Of a stretch of DNA of 64,000 nucleotides, positions 32,865 to 54,690 are shown piece after piece. Source of the stretch: Cytophagales bacterium (lineage in GTDB: Bacteria; Bacteroidota; Bacteroidia; Cytophagales; UBA9547); NCBI GenBank assembly GCA_013297755.1, contig JAAFIH010000004.1, forward strand, positions 62,001-126,000, read 5' to 3'. How positions within the stretch are numbered: position 1 is the first letter of the stretch; each line of letters begins with the position of its first letter. The notes beneath the pieces were generated by a model that was not told the DNA's origin, did no database searches, and saw only the letters and a program-made list of their open reading frames with translations. The position numbers were made by a program, and so were the translations under genes.

Positions 32865-34259
32865 ATGAATAGCAAACAACAAACCATCAAACAAAAAGTT
32901 ACTATATCTGGTGTAGGTTTACACACAGGTGCAAGTTGTAACATGACATTTGTGCCACAAGATGTAAACTTTGGTATTAAATTTCAAAGAATAGATTTAC
33001 CAGATCAGCCCATAGTAGAAGCCGATGTAGACTATGTAGTTGATTTGTCGAGAGGCACAACAATCGAAAAAAATGGGGCTAGAGTAAACACAGTAGAACA
33101 CACGCTTGCAGCACTCAGTGGATTAGAAATAGATAATATTTTGATTCAATTGGATGGCCCTGAGCCACCCATTATGGATGGTAGCTCCAAGGTTTATGTA
33201 GACGAACTCTTGAAGGTAGGATTGCAAGAGCAAAATTCATTAAGAAATTATTTTGTAGTACCCGAAAATATACGCTATATTGACGAAGCTCGTGGGGTAG
33301 AAATAGCAGCCATGCCCCTTGATAATTACAGACTTACTGTAATGGTCGATTACAACTCGCCAGTACTAGGTAGCCAACACGCCTCCATTAGCGACATCAA
33401 ACAATTTGCCAAAGAAATTGCGGCTTGTCGTACTTTTTGCTTTTTACATGAATTAGAAATGCTGAAAGCTGCCAACCTTATCAAAGGTGGCGACCTCAAC
33501 AATGCCATAGTGATTGTAGATAGAGTTATAAAAGACGATGAACTCGAAAGCCTAGCCAAATTATTTAACATACCCAAAGTAGAAGTCAAAAAAGAAGGAA
33601 TATTAAATAACCTAGAATTAAGATTCAATAACGAACCAGCACGACATAAATTATTGGATGTGATTGGCGACCTTACTTTAGTTGGCCGCCCATTGAAAGC
33701 ACAGATTTTGGCCGCTAGGCCTGGCCATGCAGCCAATATAGCTTTTGCCAGAAAATTGAAAAAAGCCATGTTGGAATCCAAAAAAATGGCACCTTATTAC
33801 AATCCTACCTTGCCACCTGTATATGATGTAAAACAAGTGTATAAAATTTTGCCACATTCTTACCCTTTCAAAATGTTGGATAAAATAATCCATCTTGAAG
33901 AAAGCCTAGTTGTGGGAGTCAAAAATGTAACTATCAACGAGCCCTTTTTTATGGGTCATTTCAACGATAATCCAGTTTTTCCAGGTGTTTTTCAAATCGA
34001 AGGAATGGCACAAACAGGTGGTATTTTGGCACTCGAAACGGTAGATGATCCCGAAAATTACTGGGCCTATTTTTTAGCTATCGAAAATTGTAGGTTCAAA
34101 AAAATGGTTGTTCCAGGCGATACTCTTATCTATAAATGTGAGTTGGTAGCTCCCATCAAAAGAGGTATTATCAAAATGCAAGGCCACGCTTATGTCAATG
34201 GACAATTGACCTGCGAAGCCACCATGACAGCAAGTATAGTTCGTAAACCAGGCGTATAA
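32865..34259 (+). CDS. lpxC/fabZ: Bifunctional LpxC deacetylase / FabZ 3-hydroxyacyl-ACP dehydratase
   Basis: The 464-residue protein is a fusion typical of Bacteroidetes. Residues 1 to about 305 are LpxC, the zinc deacetylase that commits UDP-3-O-acyl-GlcNAc to lipid A; V-E-H-T-L-A-A-L near residue 78 and R-H-K-L-L-D-V-I-G-D-L near 265 carry metal and catalytic residues. Residues 315-464 are FabZ, a hot-dog-fold dehydratase; H-S-Y-P-F near residue 330 and G-H-F-N-D-N-P-V-F-P-G-V near 367 carry the active-site His and Glu region. It is 3 bases from lpxD and 7 from lpxA. The fusion couples lipid A and fatty acid synthesis. Confidence 0.95.
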   Translation: MNSKQQTIKQKVTISGVGLHTGASCNMTFVPQDVNFGIKFQRIDLPDQPIVEADVDYVVDLSRGTTIEKNGARVNTVEHTLAALSGLEIDNILIQLDGPEPPIMDGSSKVYVDELLKVGLQEQNSLRNYFVVPENIRYIDEARGVEIAAMPLDNYRLTVMVDYNSPVLGSQHASISDIKQFAKEIAACRTFCFLHELEMLKAANLIKGGDLNNAIVIVDRVIKDDELESLAKLFNIPKVEVKKEGILNNLELRFNNEPARHKLLDVIGDLTLVGRPLKAQILAARPGHAANIAFARKLKKAMLESKKMAPYYNPTLPPVYDVKQVYKILPHSYPFKMLDKIIHLEESLVVGVKNVTINEPFFMGHFNDNPVFPGVFQIEGMAQTGGILALETVDDPENYWAYFLAIENCRFKKMVVPGDTLIYKCELVAPIKRGIIKMQGHAYVNGQLTCEATMTASIVRKPGV

Positions 34260-40206: not shown

Positions 40207-40208
40207 TT
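40131..40208. repeat. Pair of 25-bp direct repeats near the left prophage end
   Basis: Copies at 40,131-40,155 and 40,184-40,208 share ACTTCCATT and GGTTAATTTTTTT, differing only in the three bases between. They are 53 bases apart; a partial third copy lies at 40,122. The second copy touches the repressor stop codon. Repeated sites at a phage end fit binding sites for a MuA-like transposase, but no protein data support this. Confidence 0.65.
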
Positions 40209-40911
40209 ATTCGAGGCGGATAACGCCTATGACTAGGGCTAATGCTCGAACTGAATCTTGGGAAATATCAAAAGGTTTGTAGGCTTCGTTGTCGGAGTGG
40301 CAGAGGTAGTGGTTTGGTTTTGTGGATTGGAAAAGGCGTTTGACAACGGCACCCTGCCCTGTATCCATGACGTAAACCTTGCCATATTGGATAAATGAGG
40401 CATCTTTTACGTAAATACACGCCAGTATATCGCCACTTGAGTATTTGGGATACATGGACGAGCCTGAAACCTTGATGACAAAATCGGCACGGCTGAGTTC
40501 GGGGATGTTGTAATACTGTAAGTCTTGCTCGAGAGCCGAAAACTCGCCAGCACCCTGCCCAGCCATAGCCTCGATAGGTATAAGTGGGATAGAACCCTTG
40601 CTGCTTTTGTCCCCTTTTTTTGTATCATTTTGAATTGATTTTGGTTCTAAGTATGCATCAAAGTATGCATCAAAGTATGCATCATAATTATTTTGCGTAT
40701 TTAAAAAAAAATCAGAACTGACATTATACTTTAAACAAGTATTCTGAATCATCTCAATGGTTACAGACCTTCTATTTCCTTTTATATCCCCTAATGATTG
40801 TGGTAGAACACCAATTGAATCACAAAAGGATTTATCTGAATTAACTATATTTCTGCTTTTTAATTCATTAATAAAATTAATAAAATTCGCATTTACAGTA
40901 TTTTTGTCCAT
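40207..40911 (-). CDS. Phage repressor, HTH plus LexA-like S24 peptidase domain
   Basis: The 234-residue protein has an N-terminal helix-turn-helix (about 15-60), a linker containing three DAYF-type repeats encoded by a 12-bp tandem repeat (40,649-40,684), and a C-terminal S24 domain. The serine lies in K-V-S-G-S-S-M-Y-P-K and the lysine in G-A-V-V-K-R-L-F; A-M-A-G-Q-G-A-G is a plausible self-cleavage region. It likely maintains lysogeny and is inactivated by RecA-stimulated cleavage. The reading frame extends to a TTG at 40,932, but that codon is within the operator, so the ATG at 40,911 is preferred. Confidence 0.88.
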   Translation of the reverse strand: MDKNTVNANFINFINELKSRNIVNSDKSFCDSIGVLPQSLGDIKGNRRSVTIEMIQNTCLKYNVSSDFFLNTQNNYDAYFDAYFDAYLEPKSIQNDTKKGDKSSKGSIPLIPIEAMAGQGAGEFSALEQDLQYYNIPELSRADFVIKVSGSSMYPKYSSGDILACIYVKDASFIQYGKVYVMDTGQGAVVKRLFQSTKPNHYLCHSDNEAYKPFDISQDSVRALALVIGVIRLE

Positions 40912-40923
40912 AATGTTTATAAA

Positions 40924-40973
40924 TATACGCAAATAAAGTATAAAATATTTTGCAAATACTTTATTTACGTATA
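40924..40973. promoter_or_regulatory. Palindromic operator between repressor and early genes
   Basis: Two 18-base arms (40,924-40,941 and 40,956-40,973; core AAATAAAGTAT / ATACTTTATTT) are inverted copies with one mismatch around a 14-base spacer. The site lies just upstream of the repressor ATG and overlaps the early promoter, exactly where a repressor dimer pair would block both directions. Confidence 0.8.
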
Positions 40974-41983: not shown

Positions 41984-44344
41984 TTGAAACTAACTGAGCA
42001 TAAAAACCCCACCCCTAACCCCTCTCCCATAGGGAGGGGAACTGCTGGCGCACAACTGCTGGGGCGGATTGGGGAGTATGTGAAGATACATGGCACTGAT
42101 TTGGGCATAAGCATACAGTTGATTGTGAAAGCTGTGGGTAGTGAGGGTACTGTAAAAAGTGCAATAAGTCGTAAGAATATAGTGTCAGTTGGTCGTGGGT
42201 GGTATAGTTTTAGGAGTTTGGAGGGGTATAATGGGTGGGGCGGGAAGGTAATGGAGAATGTAGAAAGTAGCCTTTTAACAAACCCCACCCCAACCCCTCC
42301 CCAAAAGGGAGGGGCTACGCTGACGAATATGGATAGGTTGCGGATGATGTTGAAAATGGAGATGGCGGAGGCTGAGGTGGTGGAGATGGGTAATAAGGAG
42401 GCGGATTTGGAGGTGCTTTGGAATAAATTTAAGAAAATAACGGATGCTCACTATTACTATAATAAGCATGGTGTGGCTATGAAAAGGGCTTTTGGGCTGG
42501 CGGAGAGTGTGGCGGTGTATAGGTTTTTGGATGGCACTAGATGGGGCAAAGTGGAGCTAAAAAAAGCTACAGGGTACGAAAAGCGTGAGGATTTGTATAG
42601 GAGTGCGATAGTGATTTTGAAAACTAAGGAATTGCCCTTGGTGCCGCTGAGTTATGATAGGCTACGCACAGATGTAGATGCGTTTGGGCAATGGAAATTG
42701 GCAAAAAACCGTGTGGATATGGACTGGTTTGTGGACGAAAGAAAGGGCAATATCAACAATATGGTGATTGGCAAACCTAGCTATACGATGGATGATATTA
42801 TGCTCGAAAATAGTAATATCAACATGGCGGAGTGGCATGCCAATACCTTAGCGATGCTATACATGAACCCAGGGAGGGCGAATAAGTTTGATTTTGAAGA
42901 ATTGTATACAAGGTATAAACGCAAATGTGTGGAATGGACACAGGAGGCACAAAGTTTGAGTGCTATAAAGAGGTTTTTGAGCCAAGAAGTGGTGCAAACT
43001 TATGTAACATGGGAGCGAAACGGATATTCGGAATTTGATAAACTACTGCCAACGATTAGGGGCAAAAAACCTATGTACGCATTGAATAAATGTGGCATAG
43101 ATGGATTTCAGGTAGATTTTAGGACTGATACTGGCACGGCAAGTGTGATGCTAACGTGTGTGGTAGTGGTAGATTATATGAGCGAATGTGCGAGTGGTTT
43201 TGCGATAGGATTTACAGAAACGAGCAAATTGGTAAGGGATGCGTATAGAATGCACCTAAAAATGTACGGTGGCAAAACCTATAATGAAATAGACATGGAC
43301 GGCTCTATGGCGAATACCTGCAAAAAAAGTATGGAATTGCTAGAGCAAGTGAGCAAAAAAGTAAATACGAGCATGAGCGATGATCCGAGCAATAAGCATA
43401 GGTCGAACTCGAAAAGTAGGTATGTGGAGCGATTGATACAGGAAATAAACAGGCTGAGCCAAAGCATGGTAGGCTGGAAAGGCACAAACATAACGAGTAT
43501 AGACAGGAACAGGAAGCCGAACCCTGATTATATGAAAGGAAACGCACTAAAAGGATTGGCCGAAGGCACAAAGCAGGTAGTGCAACTATTGAACATATAC
43601 AACAGCGAGAAGCTAGATAAGCTAAAAGGCATGAGCCGAGCCGAAACGATGGAAAGCTATATGCACCCCGAAGCTGAGGTAATAGACGAACTAACCCAAG
43701 CAAGGATGCTACTCGAACGTAGGGTATTGACAATAAGAGGTGGATTGATACAAATAGAAATTGACAAAAAGAAATATGAATATGAGCTAAAAGACTGGCA
43801 CTTGCATAGGGCACGATTTGCGAAAGGCGATAAAGTGGCGGTGTATATGGACGAAACGGACATGGCTCAGATAGATATATGGGGATGGAAGGTAGATAAT
43901 AACGATAACCCCATAGAAACCTACATAGCCACAGTGCAAGAACTGAGCCGTGTATTTAGAGATGTGGCTAGCCAAACGGATGCAGATAAAGAGGCACTGG
44001 CAGAGCAAATGGGTAGGCGAAAAAGGATGCTAGGCGATGTAGAACGCAAACAACTGGAAATAGAAGCCAAAAATTATGGACTAGAACTGGCACTATATGG
44101 GGACATAAAGGAATTGAGAAAAGCAGTAGAGGGCGGAAGGATGACACAAAAAACGGTGGTGCCGATGGAAGAGCGATTTGAAGAGGAGTTGGCGAGTGAG
44201 CATAGTGAGAGGGTGGATAGGTATTTTGAAAGCCCCCTAACCCCCGAAGGGGGAACTGCTGGCGCATATTATAAGACAGTGTCAAAAATAGATCATTGGG
44301 AAAAGTTTAATAAATATAAGGAGGACGAGGGGATGTTTGAATAA
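41984..44344 (+). CDS. MuA-like DDE transposase with three in-frame palindromic insertions
   Basis: The 786-residue protein catalyses integration and replicative transposition. An rve-type DDE core is visible: Asp378 in Q-V-D-F, Asp439 in D-M-D-G-S, Glu482 in Y-V-E-R-L. The N-terminal part holds DNA-binding regions and the C-terminal part resembles the mu-type beta barrel and the MuB-interacting tail. Three palindromic elements are translated in frame: residues about 8-23 (N-P-T-P-N-P-S-P-I-G-R-G), 100-114 (N-P-T-P-T-P-P-Q-K-G-G) and 750-761 (S-P-L-T-P-E-G-G-T-A-G-A). The first reaches the TTG start, so translation may begin later. MuB-like ATPase follows. Confidence 0.82.
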   Translation: MKLTEHKNPTPNPSPIGRGTAGAQLLGRIGEYVKIHGTDLGISIQLIVKAVGSEGTVKSAISRKNIVSVGRGWYSFRSLEGYNGWGGKVMENVESSLLTNPTPTPPQKGGATLTNMDRLRMMLKMEMAEAEVVEMGNKEADLEVLWNKFKKITDAHYYYNKHGVAMKRAFGLAESVAVYRFLDGTRWGKVELKKATGYEKREDLYRSAIVILKTKELPLVPLSYDRLRTDVDAFGQWKLAKNRVDMDWFVDERKGNINNMVIGKPSYTMDDIMLENSNINMAEWHANTLAMLYMNPGRANKFDFEELYTRYKRKCVEWTQEAQSLSAIKRFLSQEVVQTYVTWERNGYSEFDKLLPTIRGKKPMYALNKCGIDGFQVDFRTDTGTASVMLTCVVVVDYMSECASGFAIGFTETSKLVRDAYRMHLKMYGGKTYNEIDMDGSMANTCKKSMELLEQVSKKVNTSMSDDPSNKHRSNSKSRYVERLIQEINRLSQSMVGWKGTNITSIDRNRKPNPDYMKGNALKGLAEGTKQVVQLLNIYNSEKLDKLKGMSRAETMESYMHPEAEVIDELTQARMLLERRVLTIRGGLIQIEIDKKKYEYELKDWHLHRARFAKGDKVAVYMDETDMAQIDIWGWKVDNNDNPIETYIATVQELSRVFRDVASQTDADKEALAEQMGRRKRMLGDVERKQLEIEAKNYGLELALYGDIKELRKAVEGGRMTQKTVVPMEERFEEELASEHSERVDRYFESPLTPEGGTAGAYYKTVSKIDHWEKFNKYKEDEGMFE
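42005..42052. repeat. Type B palindromic element in the transposase N-terminus
   Basis: CCCCACCCCTAACCCCTC ... GGGAGGGG followed by the tail CTGCTGGCGCA, in frame with the transposase (residues 8-23). Confidence 0.9.
42280..42325. repeat. Type B palindromic element in the transposase
   Basis: ACCCCAACCCCTCCCC with the matching GGGAGGGG arm and a degenerate tail; in frame (residues about 100-114), between the N-terminal binding region and the catalytic core. Confidence 0.85.
44231..44266. repeat. Type A palindromic element in the transposase C-terminus
   Basis: Full-length type A element with CTGCTGGCGCA tail, in frame, residues 750-761. Confidence 0.9.
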
Positions 44345-44505: not shown

Positions 44506-45375
44506 ATGAATAAGGATAATTTGGATAGGTTGAAATGTGCGGTGGTGGCTTACGAAAAGCAAACTGGCATTAGTCAGAACGATTTGGCAAAAGCCATTGG
44601 CATATCAAGTAGCTATCTTACGCATCTGAAAAATAGCAACTACGATGCTATACCTGCTGGCGAGGGGCGTACTACGACTTTTAGCGATGCTATGGCTAAA
44701 AAAATATCGGTTTACTTGAAAATCGACACCGAAATATGGCAAATAGAGAACTATGCCATGATGTTTAATGCACTGGTAGAGTGCAAAAAACACAAAGAAC
44801 ATAGGATAATAGACGGGCTAAAGGGGAGCGGCAAAACATTTACGGCACGGATGTTTAAAAAGCAATTTCCAAGCGAAACTTATATAGTAACGGCCGATGA
44901 TGATATGAGCCCCAAAGCATTTTTGGAGGAGTTGGCAGGGCAAATGGGCATTACGGTAAGTGGTAGCAAGCGAGTGATACGCAAGGCCATAGAAGCCAAA
45001 ATAATGAGCCAAAAAAATACGATTATCATCGTAGACGAAGCCGAAAACCTGAAAGCTGGTAGCTACGGTGCCATAAAAGCCCTATACGATAGCGTAATGG
45101 AATATGCAGGGCTGGTGCTGATAGGTGCTAATAATTATGGGGACTGGCTGCGCAAGCAGGCTGGCAAAAACAAAACGCCATTTACGCAACTATATAGCCG
45201 ATTTAGTGCCAATACTGTAAACCTAGCCACTATGACTAAGGCTGATGTGGTGATGATATGTAAGCTCAATGGCATTGTGGATAGGGAGACTATCCTACAA
45301 TTTTATAATACCTGTACGGATTATAGGGAATTGGATAGGGCTGTGAAGAGGTGGTTGCGTGATAGGGAGTTGTAA
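44506..45375 (+). CDS. MuB-like transposition ATPase (HTH plus AAA)
   Basis: The 289-residue protein has an N-terminal helix-turn-helix (about 18-45, G-I-S-Q-N-D-L-A-K-A-I-G-I-S-S-S-Y-L), and an AAA ATPase domain with Walker A G-L-K-G-S-G-K-T at 104-111 and Walker B I-I-I-V-D-E-A-E at 173-180. This matches MuB, which binds target DNA non-specifically, delivers it to the transposase and stimulates strand transfer. It directly follows the transposase, as in Mu. The HTH in place of the Mu-type N-terminus is usual for Bacteroidetes relatives. Confidence 0.85.
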   Translation: MNKDNLDRLKCAVVAYEKQTGISQNDLAKAIGISSSYLTHLKNSNYDAIPAGEGRTTTFSDAMAKKISVYLKIDTEIWQIENYAMMFNALVECKKHKEHRIIDGLKGSGKTFTARMFKKQFPSETYIVTADDDMSPKAFLEELAGQMGITVSGSKRVIRKAIEAKIMSQKNTIIIVDEAENLKAGSYGAIKALYDSVMEYAGLVLIGANNYGDWLRKQAGKNKTPFTQLYSRFSANTVNLATMTKADVVMICKLNGIVDRETILQFYNTCTDYRELDRAVKRWLRDREL

Positions 45376-47817: not shown

Positions 47818-48222
47818 ATGAGCAAAACAAAGCAAAAAAAAGATGTAGCACCTTTGGAGGTGCCCATAGAAGTAAAAGCAGAGGCTTTGGCCAATCTGTT
47901 TAGGAGCAAAAAGGCAGTAGATGCCGAAATAAAGCCTATCAAAGAAGAGATAATGGCGTATGTGGAGCTGCACAAAAAGGAGCTTTTTGGCGACAAAAAA
48001 AGTTGCAAAATAGGGGGACTAGAGATAGCCATTCGCCCCGACCATAGCTATGTGCTGGGCGAGGATTTTAATCTAGTGAAGTTTTATAAGCTATTTCCAA
48101 GAGCTGTAGAAATAACGCTGAGCCATACCAACATGACCAATGTAGATGCAAAAAAATATGGCATTGAGCATACCGTGGCAGAGAAAGTAACGGTGGCATT
48201 GCAAAAGGAAAAAGCCCCCTAA
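47818..48222 (+). CDS. Gam-like host-nuclease inhibitor (tentative)
   Basis: The 134-residue protein has a helical N-terminal half with A-L-A-N-L-F-R-S-K-K-A-V-D-A-E-I-K-P-I-K-E-E-I and then a short beta region, C-K-I-G-G-L-E-I-A-I-R, followed by V-K-F-Y-K-L-F-P. This helix plus beta layout resembles Mu Gam-like proteins, which bind DNA ends and protect them from RecBCD-type nucleases, and the place in the early region fits. The similarity is by pattern only; other phage recombination accessory proteins have a comparable layout. A type A element supplies the last residues (K-A-P) and stop. Confidence 0.5.
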   Translation: MSKTKQKKDVAPLEVPIEVKAEALANLFRSKKAVDAEIKPIKEEIMAYVELHKKELFGDKKSCKIGGLEIAIRPDHSYVLGEDFNLVKFYKLFPRAVEITLSHTNMTNVDAKKYGIEHTVAEKVTVALQKEKAP

Positions 48223-50813: not shown

Positions 50814-51437
50814 ATGAATAATAAATTAGTTAAAATCGCAAACAAGTACCAAGCTATCAAATTTAACGAAAACAATTATAGCGTTGGTGGTGGATTATCA
50901 GATGGTGCTTTTGCTTCTAAGCGTCATCAAGATGCAAAGTATGATGAAGGTAAATTAACAGAAGGTCAAGCCACACAACTATTCAAAAAAGCAACTGAAT
51001 TAGAAATTGAAGTTGTGAAAGCTGTTATCAATTATGCAGTGCCAAATATGGAATGGCATCACGCTGGTAAATTGCCTAAACAATATGGTGGTGGAATGAA
51101 AAAAACTTATTTTTTAAACAATACTGAAATTGTTGATTTAGCTACTAATTGGGAAAGTTATTTTGAAAAATACCAAATATCAATTGAAGCTAAAAAAACT
51201 GCTGAACAAATTAAAAAAGAATTAGAAAGCAAAAAGTTTGAATTTTTACAAGCAAATGCAAAAAAATTAGAAAGAACAACAAATCAACCAAACTATTTTT
51301 ACAAAACAGCACAAGAAATGAATGGAAAGTATGGCTGGTTTGATAGCACTTACAAATCTTATAATATGACTGAATATTTTAGTGGTTGGGAATTTGAAAG
51401 CCAAGAAAAATACCAAGAATTTTTAAATATAAAATAA
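50814..51437 (+). CDS. Hypothetical protein, accessory gene pair member 1
   Basis: The 207-residue protein is not recognised. Motif-like features are W-H-H-A-G-K-L-P-K-Q-Y-G-G-G-M-K-K-T-Y, which recurs in uncharacterised Bacteroidetes accessory proteins, and a charged helix near residue 140. The ATG at 50,814 is preferred to a GTG ten codons earlier. Its stop overlaps the next ATG (T-A-A-T-G), so the two are translationally coupled. Composition is more AT-rich than the surrounding phage genes. A toxin-antitoxin or defence role is possible because of the HTH partner, but unproven. Confidence 0.55.
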   Translation: MNNKLVKIANKYQAIKFNENNYSVGGGLSDGAFASKRHQDAKYDEGKLTEGQATQLFKKATELEIEVVKAVINYAVPNMEWHHAGKLPKQYGGGMKKTYFLNNTEIVDLATNWESYFEKYQISIEAKKTAEQIKKELESKKFEFLQANAKKLERTTNQPNYFYKTAQEMNGKYGWFDSTYKSYNMTEYFSGWEFESQEKYQEFLNIK

Positions 51438-51883
51438 TGAATGAAAATGTAATTTTAGAAGCCCGACAGAAATTCGGGCTTCTTTTCAAAAATTTGAGAA
51501 ACAAAAAAAGACTAAGCCAAAGCCAAGTGGCTGAATTTTGTGGCGTAACTTTTCAAACTATAAACAAAATTGAGCAAGGCAAATTTCCTTACTCGGTTGA
51601 TTTGCTTATGAAATTATCCGTTGTACTTGAATTTACCATCAATTTTGAAATGAAAGAAATTGGCGATGATAGTAGATTTATTTTGCAACCAAGCCAAAGG
51701 CAAGGCTTTTGGACTTGCACTGATAAAGAAAATCAAATTGTTTGCAATTTTGAAGCTGGAAAATTTAACGATACTCAAAGTTTTAGCTTCTTAAATGATA
51801 CTCAATTTTCTGCTGGAAAAGTCGCAACAATAATGAGGGAATTTGGCGACTGGTTGGCTCAAAATCATAGCGATAAAGTTTAG
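51437..51883 (+). CDS. HTH-domain protein, accessory gene pair member 2
   Basis: The 148-residue protein has an N-terminal XRE-type helix-turn-helix (residues 14-60, L-R-N-K-K-R-L-S-Q-S-Q-V-A-E-F-C-G-V) and an unrecognised C-terminal domain of about 80 residues. It is coupled to the preceding gene by a TAATG overlap, as antitoxin-type regulators often are. It ends 25 bases before an inverted-repeat arm that resembles a cassette recombination site. The HTH is clear; the role is inferred. Confidence 0.75.
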   Translation: MNENVILEARQKFGLLFKNLRNKKRLSQSQVAEFCGVTFQTINKIEQGKFPYSVDLLMKLSVVLEFTINFEMKEIGDDSRFILQPSQRQGFWTCTDKENQIVCNFEAGKFNDTQSFSFLNDTQFSAGKVATIMREFGDWLAQNHSDKV

Positions 51884-52676: not shown

Positions 52677-52714
52677 TAATGGTTAATGGTTAATTGTTAA
52701 TTGTTAATTGTTAA
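52677..52714. repeat. Heptamer tandem repeat (TTAATTG type)
   Basis: Five units of 7 bp (two TTAATGG, three TTAATTG) follow the replication-type gene stop codon. Confidence 0.85.
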
Positions 52715-52755: not shown

Positions 52756-52929
52756 ATGTTGCAAATGTGGTTGAATAATAGTTTGTTTGCATCTATATTT
52801 TGTTTGTGTGGTTTGGGTGCTTACGGCTTTTATTTGGGCTATGCCACACAAGTAAGTGTAATTATAACAGGTACTTTGGCTAGCTTAGCAGGTGTTTTTT
52901 TACTAAAAAATAGAGCTTCAAAAAAATGA
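52756..52929 (+). CDS. Small two-helix membrane protein
   Basis: The 57-residue protein has two hydrophobic segments (about 7-28 and 32-50) and a short positively charged tail. An upstream TTG start is possible, but the ATG at 52,756 better fits a small membrane protein. Its stop codon overlaps the next ATG. The topology resembles small holins; however, it lies with early genes, so it could instead be a membrane moron coupled to the cysteine-rich protein that follows. Confidence 0.5.
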   Translation: MLQMWLNNSLFASIFCLCGLGAYGFYLGYATQVSVIITGTLASLAGVFLLKNRASKK

Positions 52930-53102
52930 TTAGAAAAATTTTATTAATTACTGGTTTAGTATTGGTTAGTTCGATTGGTTATGTTGTTTACAGCACAATT
53001 TCGAGTAAATGTACAGGCTCAAAAAATTGTTATGCTTGCAAAAATTGCTCAGGATGCAAGCATTGTGCGAAAGATGGGGGCACATGTGGAACTTGCAGAT
53101 AA
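52926..53102 (+). CDS. Small membrane-anchored cysteine-rich protein
   Basis: This 58-residue protein has an N-terminal hydrophobic helix (about 4-26) followed by a lysine-rich tail with eight cysteines in C-x6-C-x2-C-x2-C-x2-C-x2-C-x6-C-x2-C. The regular C-x2-C spacing suggests zinc or iron-sulphur binding, or disulphides if the tail is periplasmic. Its ATG overlaps the TGA of the preceding membrane protein gene, so they are co-translated. I recognise no family. It is followed by the promoter of the antirepressor leader. Confidence 0.6.
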   Translation: MIRKILLITGLVLVSSIGYVVYSTISSKCTGSKNCYACKNCSGCKHCAKDGGTCGTCR

Positions 53103-53116
53103 TTTTTAATCTTTTT

Positions 53117-53147
53117 TTTGCAATATTAAATTTAATCATTATGTTTG
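53117..53147 (+). promoter_or_regulatory. Promoter of the antirepressor leader
   Basis: TTTG (53,117-53,120) and TATGTTTG (53,140-53,147) are exactly 19 bases apart, the same geometry as the early promoter. Predicted start near 53,154, which gives a leader of about 206 bases before the antirepressor ATG. Confidence 0.75.
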
Positions 53148-53153
53148 CATTGT

Positions 53154-53331
53154 CAAATACTAATACTTGTGGGTACGGAAGCCCATAGAATACTATAGGG
53201 CTATTTTTATGCCCAAAAAGTAATGTTAATACTGTGAATAGCGGTGTTGCAACCCCGTTTCATAGTTGTAATGGCTATGATAAGCTCCACAAGTTGGTGT
53301 TTGACAACGGGAAGTGCAACACCGCTTTTTT
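53154..53331 (+). ncRNA. Structured leader RNA upstream of the antirepressor gene
   Basis: Two structures are visible. The first hairpin (53,180-53,202; AGCCC/GGGCT, one bulge) is followed by ATTTTT and then GCCC, which could re-pair with GGGC. The second has a perfect 12-bp stem (53,240-53,251 with 53,315-53,326), an inner CCCGTT/AACGGG stem, and a side hairpin TCATAG/CTATGA, and ends in six T. It could be an attenuating leader or a free small RNA with an intrinsic terminator. Confidence 0.65.
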
Positions 53332-53359
53332 GTTGCTCAAAATCAATGTCAAACACCAA

Positions 53360-54052
53360 ATGCTTAAAAACCAACCCAATCAAGCTGCGAATAACAGTAA
53401 CAGCCTATTTGCGAATGACTCACGAAAAGAGTTAATCCCGATTATACAAAAACAAGGAGAACAACTCATAGATGCAAGGCAATTGCATGAGTTTTTAGAA
53501 ATAAAAACTAAGTTTACACAATGGTTTCAGATTCGTGTTAAAGAATATGACTTCAAAAATGGCTTAGACTATTTCCCAAATTTCGGAAATACTGGTTTTA
53601 AACCAACCAATGAATTTAAAATTACCCTCGACATGGCAAAAGAATTAGCTATGCTTGAGCGTTCGGATAAAGGCAGGCAGATACGCCAGTATTTTATTGC
53701 ATGTGAAAAAAAGCTACGTGAGGTTGCCAAAATAGATGTGCCACTCGTAACCAAAATGCTTAAAGAAATTGACAAAAGCATAAAGCCAATACGCATAAAC
53801 AACCGCAAAGTATATGAATACCGAAAAGTGCAAGATTGGCTCGGTTTTAGCACCAAAAGTAGCATAGGGCACGTTCGCAAAAGCTACGAAAGCCAGTTGG
53901 TAATATTCGACAAAAAAGCCTATATCAGCGAGCGATATGTAGAGGTAATGATAAGCCGTGCGAATACCCGAAATTTGGAGGTAGTAGCCAAAGCATCGCC
54001 AGCAGTATTACAAATTAGTTTTTCTAACCCTTTAAACTTCTCTAACCCATGA
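53360..54052 (+). CDS. AntA/AntB-type phage antirepressor
   Basis: The 230-residue protein has an AntA/AntB domain at about 25-115 (L-I-D-A-R-Q-L-H-E-F-L-E-I-K-T-K-F-T-Q-W and the E-F-K-I-T-L-D-M-A-K-E-L-A-M-L-E-R segment), then a second DNA-binding-like region near 150-195 (V-Y-E-Y-R-K-V-Q-D-W-L-G-F). Antirepressors of this type inactivate the repressor and promote lytic growth. The ATG at 53,360 is chosen; an upstream GTG would place the structured leader inside the frame. It is preceded by that leader and overlaps the next gene by four bases. Confidence 0.82.
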   Translation: MLKNQPNQAANNSNSLFANDSRKELIPIIQKQGEQLIDARQLHEFLEIKTKFTQWFQIRVKEYDFKNGLDYFPNFGNTGFKPTNEFKITLDMAKELAMLERSDKGRQIRQYFIACEKKLREVAKIDVPLVTKMLKEIDKSIKPIRINNRKVYEYRKVQDWLGFSTKSSIGHVRKSYESQLVIFDKKAYISERYVEVMISRANTRNLEVVAKASPAVLQISFSNPLNFSNP

Positions 54053-54436: not shown

Positions 54437-54472
54437 GATAATTAACCATTAATCATTAACCATTAACCATTA
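54437..54472. repeat. Heptamer tandem repeat (TTAACCA type)
   Basis: Four to five 7-bp units (TTAACCA/TTAATCA) immediately before the start of the 70-residue gene. An 8-bp-period array (ACCTACCA type) lies just upstream at 54,346-54,378. Confidence 0.85.
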
Positions 54473-54477
54473 AATAC

Positions 54478-54690
54478 ATGTCTCCTCAGGCTCTCAACAA
54501 AGTACATCGTGATTTGGCGTTTAAGGCTCGGTTTGATTATTTGTATAATACCGAACGCAAGCGTGTAGACGATGTATGGGCTTGCCTCAGCCAAGAGTAT
54601 CATGTATCGGTGGTTACGCTACAGCGCAGGTTGCGCCAGTTAGACGAGCGGTTGAGTAGTAGCAAAACCAACCAAATGAGCCTTTTTTAA
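54478..54690 (+). CDS. Small basic phage protein, possible DNA-binding
   Basis: The 70-residue protein has a likely helix-turn-helix at its centre (V-W-A-C-L-S-Q-E-Y-H-V-S-V-V-T-L-Q-R-R-L-R). It stands alone between the early terminator and the convergent late operon, with a heptamer leader. The position suits a Mor/C-like activator of late transcription, but it is shorter than those and the resemblance is only in the HTH. Call is tentative. Confidence 0.5.
   Translation: MSPQALNKVHRDLAFKARFDYLYNTERKRVDDVWACLSQEYHVSVVTLQRRLRQLDERLSSSKTNQMSLF

Follow-up and report, generated by a model that had tools for sequence, protein, structure and literature searches.

How phages of the Bacteroidota maintain and leave lysogeny is little known, and the locus described here raises the question of which function a long structured leader ahead of a prophage antirepressor gene fulfils. 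The 64,000-nt stretch that was analysed (the window) is part of a Bacteroidota chromosome, exemplified by a fused LpxC/FabZ-like ORF (32865-34259, read by eye), and carries a Mu-like prophage with an S24-type repressor gene on the minus strand (40207-40932), a probable transposase gene assigned by position without a Pfam match (41984-44344), an AAA ATPase gene (44506-45375), a Gam-like gene (47818-48222), an HTH regulator gene (51437-51883) and, from 54877 onward, minus-strand head/tail genes. The antirepressor gene antA (53360-54052, plus strand, ATG at 53360) encodes a protein of 230 aa that matches Pfam AntA (PF08346; E 6.9e-23 to 1.1e-22) and the PHROGs family anti-repressor Ant (E 3e-34), and it starts 28 nt past the T-run of a structured element. 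We propose, with a probability of roughly 85%, that this element (53240-53331) is a C4/CI-type antisense RNA which represses antirepressor synthesis at the start codon and probably also via premature transcription termination. The proposal is based on the fold and its covariation, the promoter box, an arm complementary to two targets (T1 and T2) and the locus-specific matching of arm and targets.

Architecture of the antA leader

A Bacteroidota-type promoter on the plus strand (53117-53147) consists of TTTG (53117-53120), a spacer of 19 nt and TATGTTTG (53140-53147), the latter aligned with the -7 box of relatives. Target T1 (TTGTCAAATACTAATACTTGTGG, 53150-53172) begins directly past the -7 box and forms the first ca. 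23 nt of the predicted transcript. In the 26 loci that allowed anchoring, a TAnnTTTG box precedes T1 at a constant distance, with base frequencies of.77 (T),.88 (A),.69 (T),.92 (T),.69 (T) and.81 (G). Downstream of T1, a terminator-like hairpin AGCCC...GGGCT (53180-53202) followed by ATTTTT constitutes a candidate premature terminator (53180-53209), as indicated by the fold and by a GGGC-T-run in most relatives. On the 3' side of the T-run lies TGCCC (53210-53214), which is conserved in main-type relatives and offers an alternative partner, such that GGGC at 53198-53201 can pair with GCCC at either 53181-53184 or 53211-53214.

The element itself (53240-53326, plus strand) is closed by the perfect 12-bp stem P1 (53240-53251/53315-53326), which encloses the stem P1b (CCCGTT/AACGGG) and the hairpins P2 (53260-53280) and P3 (53281-53303). 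Six T residues at 53326-53331, kept after P1 in relatives, mark a candidate sRNA 3' end formed by intrinsic termination. The fold energies of 53150-53340 (z -4.85) and 53230-53340 (z -4.69) are each lower than those of 200/200 shuffled sequences, and the covariance model described below (R1) scores the element with 90.9 bits. These data corroborate the first-pass annotation of this DNA, which had described the promoter, the first hairpin with its T-rich tail, the GGGC/GCCC alternative and the three-part structure with its 12-bp closing stem and terminal T6, and which could name no RNA family for the leader. Indeed, no Rfam model matches the element: a search of the window at gathering threshold gave no C4 match (RF01695, threshold 45 bits) and none to isrK, a search of 53000-53500 at E<=10 gave no relevant match, C4 included, and 12 relatives checked against the Rfam C4 model were likewise without a match. 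A DNA search with the whole leader found no second copy in its own genome or in the family.

Several further features of the surroundings were recorded. Between 53106 and 53157 the sequence shares 83-88% identity with non-coding DNA of Bacteroides fragilis phages, in which similar stretches occur up to several times per phage (Barc2635, B40-8, B124-14 and others); it perhaps represents a common phage promoter sequence. An ORF for a 58-aa Cys-rich protein with a hydrophobic N-terminal segment (52926-53102) adjoins the promoter on the upstream side and bears a weak likeness to a FeoB-associated Cys-rich protein (E 0.011). Mutually inverted runs of TTAATTG/TTAACCA repeats at 52679-52714 and 54438-54478 bracket the antirepressor region. 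Peptide repeats of the types NPTPNPSPIGRGTAGA and KPHPQGVVLQ within the phage ORFs 41984-44344, 46285-46890 and 49367-49660 are likely an interspersed DNA repeat that is read through in frame.

Relatives and covariation of the fold

A search for AntA in 395 genomes of the phylum yielded only 2 matches, and the gene being too rare for collecting homologues, collection-wide DNA patterns were used instead. In many of 80 AntA loci on viral contigs, the leader contains a long stem accompanied by a T-run; four loci carry Rfam C4 matches there, one of them together with isrK, and another locus has a match to sRNA-Xcc1. The latter (RF02221, L061:2870-2957) occupies the place that C4 holds in other AntA loci, and in L065 (2776-2968) a weak a1b1 match, isrK and C4 follow one another ahead of AntA; Xcc1 may be a relative of C4, and isrK an a1b1-plus-terminator part. 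Loci resembling that of the window share the core AACCCCGT ... GACARCGGGAAGTG. A scan for this core identified 13 viral contigs and 7 genome contigs, the latter from 6 Bacteroidota MAGs and one Streptomyces genome; the Streptomyces locus (L111) lacks such a leader layout and was discarded as a chance match. The model R1, built from 14 sequences, recovered members outside its training set (L026, L089, L093, L101, L102, L103, L107 and, from a genome, L113 with E 2e-7), and relaxed patterns combined with R1 extended the collection to about 105 relatives, 70 of them non-redundant. The element thus occurs on some 100 contigs of viral or prophage origin, belongs to no Rfam family, and is present in 2/395 sampled genomes of the phylum, which points to a trait of mobile elements and not of the core genome.

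The search patterns fixed P1b, one loop word of P2 and flanking bases, leaving P1, the P2 and P3 stems and the targets free; the near invariance of P1b (CCCG/CGGG) is therefore a consequence of the search. Counts and model are based on alignment A3, as the short-P2 subtype was out of register in A1 and P1 was broken up by gaps in A2. In 14 sequences aligned with MAFFT, both sides changed in 17/27 pairs, and RNAalifold recovered P1, P1b and P2 without prompting. Covariation analysis of homologous leaders, which had been suggested along with the first description, found conserved pairing in this set, with 71 double-changed cells compared to 21.2 after shuffling (reached by 0/500 shuffles) and at most 19 for slid structures, as well as in 76 distinct sequences, where 580 double changes stand against 173 shuffled. 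In the larger set, 94.7% of the cells are paired, and the covariation score is 0.759 compared to 0.206 for shuffled and at most 0.126 for slid structures; since this alignment was fitted to the model, the 14-sequence test is the cleaner one.

The genes behind the element were analysed on the basis of 62 downstream proteins, which Pfam assigned to Bro-N (14), ANT (9), Rha (6), KilA-N (5), AntA (4) and P22_AR_N (1). All Pfam-recognised genes are thus of the antirepressor type, in agreement with PHROGs, and about half of the 62 ORFs are without a Pfam family match. At some of the loci without a direct match a short ORF comes first and is followed by an antirepressor-type gene, often with a 4-nt overlap. 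This order recalls orf45-anrP of Gifsy-1 (PMC4825925) and icd-ant of P1 (PMC8198154). The overlap between the first ORF, whose start forms T2, and the next was noted in L094, L117, L158, L168, L173, L194, L201 and L204, and suggests, by analogy, translational coupling as in orf45-anrP.

An antisense arm and its two predicted targets

The third arm of the element contains an antisense segment (53287-53306, plus strand) composed of a' (CCACAAGT, 53287-53294) and b' (TTGGTGTTTGACA, 53294-53306), which is complementary to both T1 and T2; corresponding arms a' and b' have been described for C4 (PMC5320573). T2 (TGTCAAACACCAA, 53347-53359, plus strand) abuts the antA start codon and is the perfect complement of b' over 13 nt. 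When the 34-nt start-codon target was shuffled 2000 times, the longest complement reached 11 nt (mean 5.5). The duplex between arm and T2 in the window has a predicted energy of -22.8 kcal/mol and runs into the first antA codons. That with T1 amounts to -28.5 kcal/mol, a value better than those of all 18 foreign antisense arms.

The matching of arm and target is locus-specific throughout the family. In 19 loci, pairing of T1 with its own arm averages -30.0 kcal/mol (-30.5 kcal/mol in L096) compared to -16.9 kcal/mol with foreign arms, and the corresponding values for T2 are -18.0 and -12.2 kcal/mol (permutation 0/20000 in both cases). The own RNA is the best T1 partner of all RNAs in 60/66 non-redundant loci. 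T2 represents the weaker and more variable target across the family: in 67 loci the own arm pairs with -17.7 compared to -13.2 kcal/mol for foreign arms (permutation 0/5000), and the specificity is lower, with the own RNA best of all in 12/67 and within the top 5% in 26/67 loci. The duplex with T2 extends as far as the start codon in 56/64 loci, and the ATG is located at a median distance of 32 nt past the element. Computational analysis thus finds the attributes of a C4-type RNA, namely a P1 stem enclosing two hairpins, a position in an antirepressor leader, a start-codon target and an upstream target, and the position before AntA genes is matched by Rfam C4 models in other phages.

A G/C arm with a T-run lies between T1 and the element in most relatives, one scan finding it absent in 21/65. 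Folding the nascent leader as far as the T-run gave mean predicted terminator probabilities for close relatives of 0.30 with T1 free and 0.96 with T1 blocked, rising in 18/18 loci. With T1 shuffled, the probability was 0.80, which indicates that the terminator is counteracted by the particular sequence of T1; in 44 loci the respective values were 0.49 (free), 0.97 (blocked) and 0.78 (shuffled). In the window, the probability increases only from 0.85 to 1.00 upon blocking of T1, so that the start-codon block probably matters more there and attenuation, according to this modelling, may be minor. The first-pass annotation, which had suggested an attenuator or a small RNA limiting antirepressor expression, pointed in the right direction, and its attenuator is well supported by these predictions for many relatives but weak in the window itself; it had overlooked the antisense segment with its two complementary targets and hence the probable mechanism, in which an antisense arm pairs with the 5' end of the transcript and with a start codon.

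The location of the terminator-like hairpin and T-run after T1 also evokes another regulator, a short leader RNA (53150-53209) that would act in trans and activate antA by titrating the arm. There is a precedent in the short IsrK of Gifsy-1, which acts in trans to promote translation of the readthrough mRNA (PMC4825925). We consider such a role unlikely, as the G/C arm and T-run are missing from those 21 of the 65 relatives; it would, moreover, be compatible with the C4-like function and form an extra layer upon it.

Proposed mechanism and known antisense systems

Consistent with these data, we propose the following scenario for the C4-like antisense RNA. Transcription would begin near 53150 and mostly stop at T6, producing an RNA that contains the structured element of ca. 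87 nt; the antisense RNA would thus be a portion of the antirepressor transcript's own leader and accumulate via termination at T6 or via processing. Binding in trans to T2 of readthrough transcripts would hide the antA start codon and block ribosome entry. In many relatives, binding of the arm to nascent T1 would additionally break the antiterminator, upon which the GCCC/GGGC hairpin and T-run would end transcription early. With antirepressor kept low, the repressor of the prophage, for which the S24-type protein encoded at 40207-40932 is the probable candidate, would remain active and lysogeny would hold. A related phage that infects the lysogen would be subject to silencing by the resident antisense RNA. 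Upon entry into a naive cell, this RNA would still be absent and antirepressor could be made.

A purely cis-acting switch, in which competition between T1, arm and T2 on a single transcript would set antA translation and termination, appears still less probable than the activating leader RNA. In cis, the arm:T1, arm:T2 and C4-like folds are predicted within about 4 kcal/mol of each other, and alternative structures of this kind are used by the IsrK readthrough mRNA of Salmonella (PMC4825925). However, the T6 directly past the 12-bp stem resembles an intrinsic terminator, at which the RNA would be set free, the arm fits T1 better than T2 in most loci, and the similarly arranged P1 C4 and P4 CI act in trans. 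Switching among the three near-equal pairings may instead add to repression in trans by the antisense RNA. Finally, an N-terminal extension of the antirepressor (a 272-aa frame from GTG 53234 that is open across the element) or a terminator of the upstream operon can practically be dismissed in view of the compensatory changes throughout the stems, the locus-specific antisense matches, the promoter box ahead of T1 and the different gene families behind one and the same element.

The description of C4 RNA by Weinberg et al. (2010, PMC2864571) covers Proteobacteria and phages, and in the open-access literature we found no description of a C4-like RNA in Bacteroidota. Like the RNA proposed here, C4 of P1/P7 (RF01695; targets a1b1, RF03163, and a2b2) is small and is encoded ahead of ant in the leader of its transcript. 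Both have a P1 stem that encloses two hairpins and arms that can pair with upstream leader sequence as well as with the beginning of the gene under control, and in both cases this control concerns antirepressor genes, sometimes by way of a short upstream ORF. T1 would correspond to a1b1 of P1 or seqA of P4 and T2 to a2b2 of P1. In contrast to C4, the element has its own core (CCCCGT ... RCGGGAA with a TAATG loop), a T-run after P1, a Bacteroidota promoter and often an intrinsic terminator after T1; T2 of the window lies on the start codon of the antirepressor gene itself, whereas the P1 operon is arranged as c4-icd-ant (PMC8198154). Covariance models matched in neither direction, neither Rfam C4 to the element nor R1 to the loci with Rfam C4 matches. 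Judged from its sequence, the element would work like P1 C4 and P4 CI, yet by score it is no member of RF01695; the likeness is one of layout and predicted function and may, but need not, reflect shared ancestry.

The CI RNA of the satellite phage P4 is also a leader-derived antisense RNA; it pairs with seqA and seqC, which flank it on the upstream and the downstream side, and thereby causes premature transcription termination (PMC4825925). It is, however, an immunity factor for replication genes and no antirepressor brake; the comparison made here concerns its layout. The IsrK/orf45/anrP region of Gifsy-1 (Salmonella) likewise combines a terminator-hairpin leader, a readthrough mRNA with alternative structures and a downstream antirepressor-like gene, and in L065 the isrK match adjoins the C4 match on its upstream side before AntA, but sequence and phylum differ. 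The sar RNA of P22, which controls ant translation by an antisense mechanism (review PMC12197685), is a different RNA for which a leader-encoded dual-target layout is not described.

The element provides a testable RNA component of lysogeny control that can be read from sequence and extends the logic of P1 C4 and P4 CI beyond Proteobacteria, with one RNA scaffold serving unrelated antirepressor proteins. We see about even odds for the wider view that it belongs to a large, so far overlooked class of immunity RNAs by which Bacteroidota temperate phages exert antisense control; the variable arm would then set cross-immunity, one and the same arm would serve as attenuator trigger at the 5' end and as start-codon block, and the module would have been joined to six or more antirepressor domain families. 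The element further suggests that immunity groups could be readable from the arm of ca. 20 nt.

Three viral contigs (L163, L174, L221) contain two R1 elements each, which could reflect two separately controlled antirepressors. Leader hairpins of other scaffolds on AntA viral contigs (L009, L011, L012, L016, L038, L040) are without a convincing R1 match and seem to contain a stretch that could pair with the leader, the gene start or both; this stretch measures ca. 19 nt in L040, compared to 11 nt in L016. Judging from these sequences, several unrelated scaffolds may exert C4-like control; the shuffle tests gave a mixed picture, with a clear result for one target in each of L016, L038 and L040.
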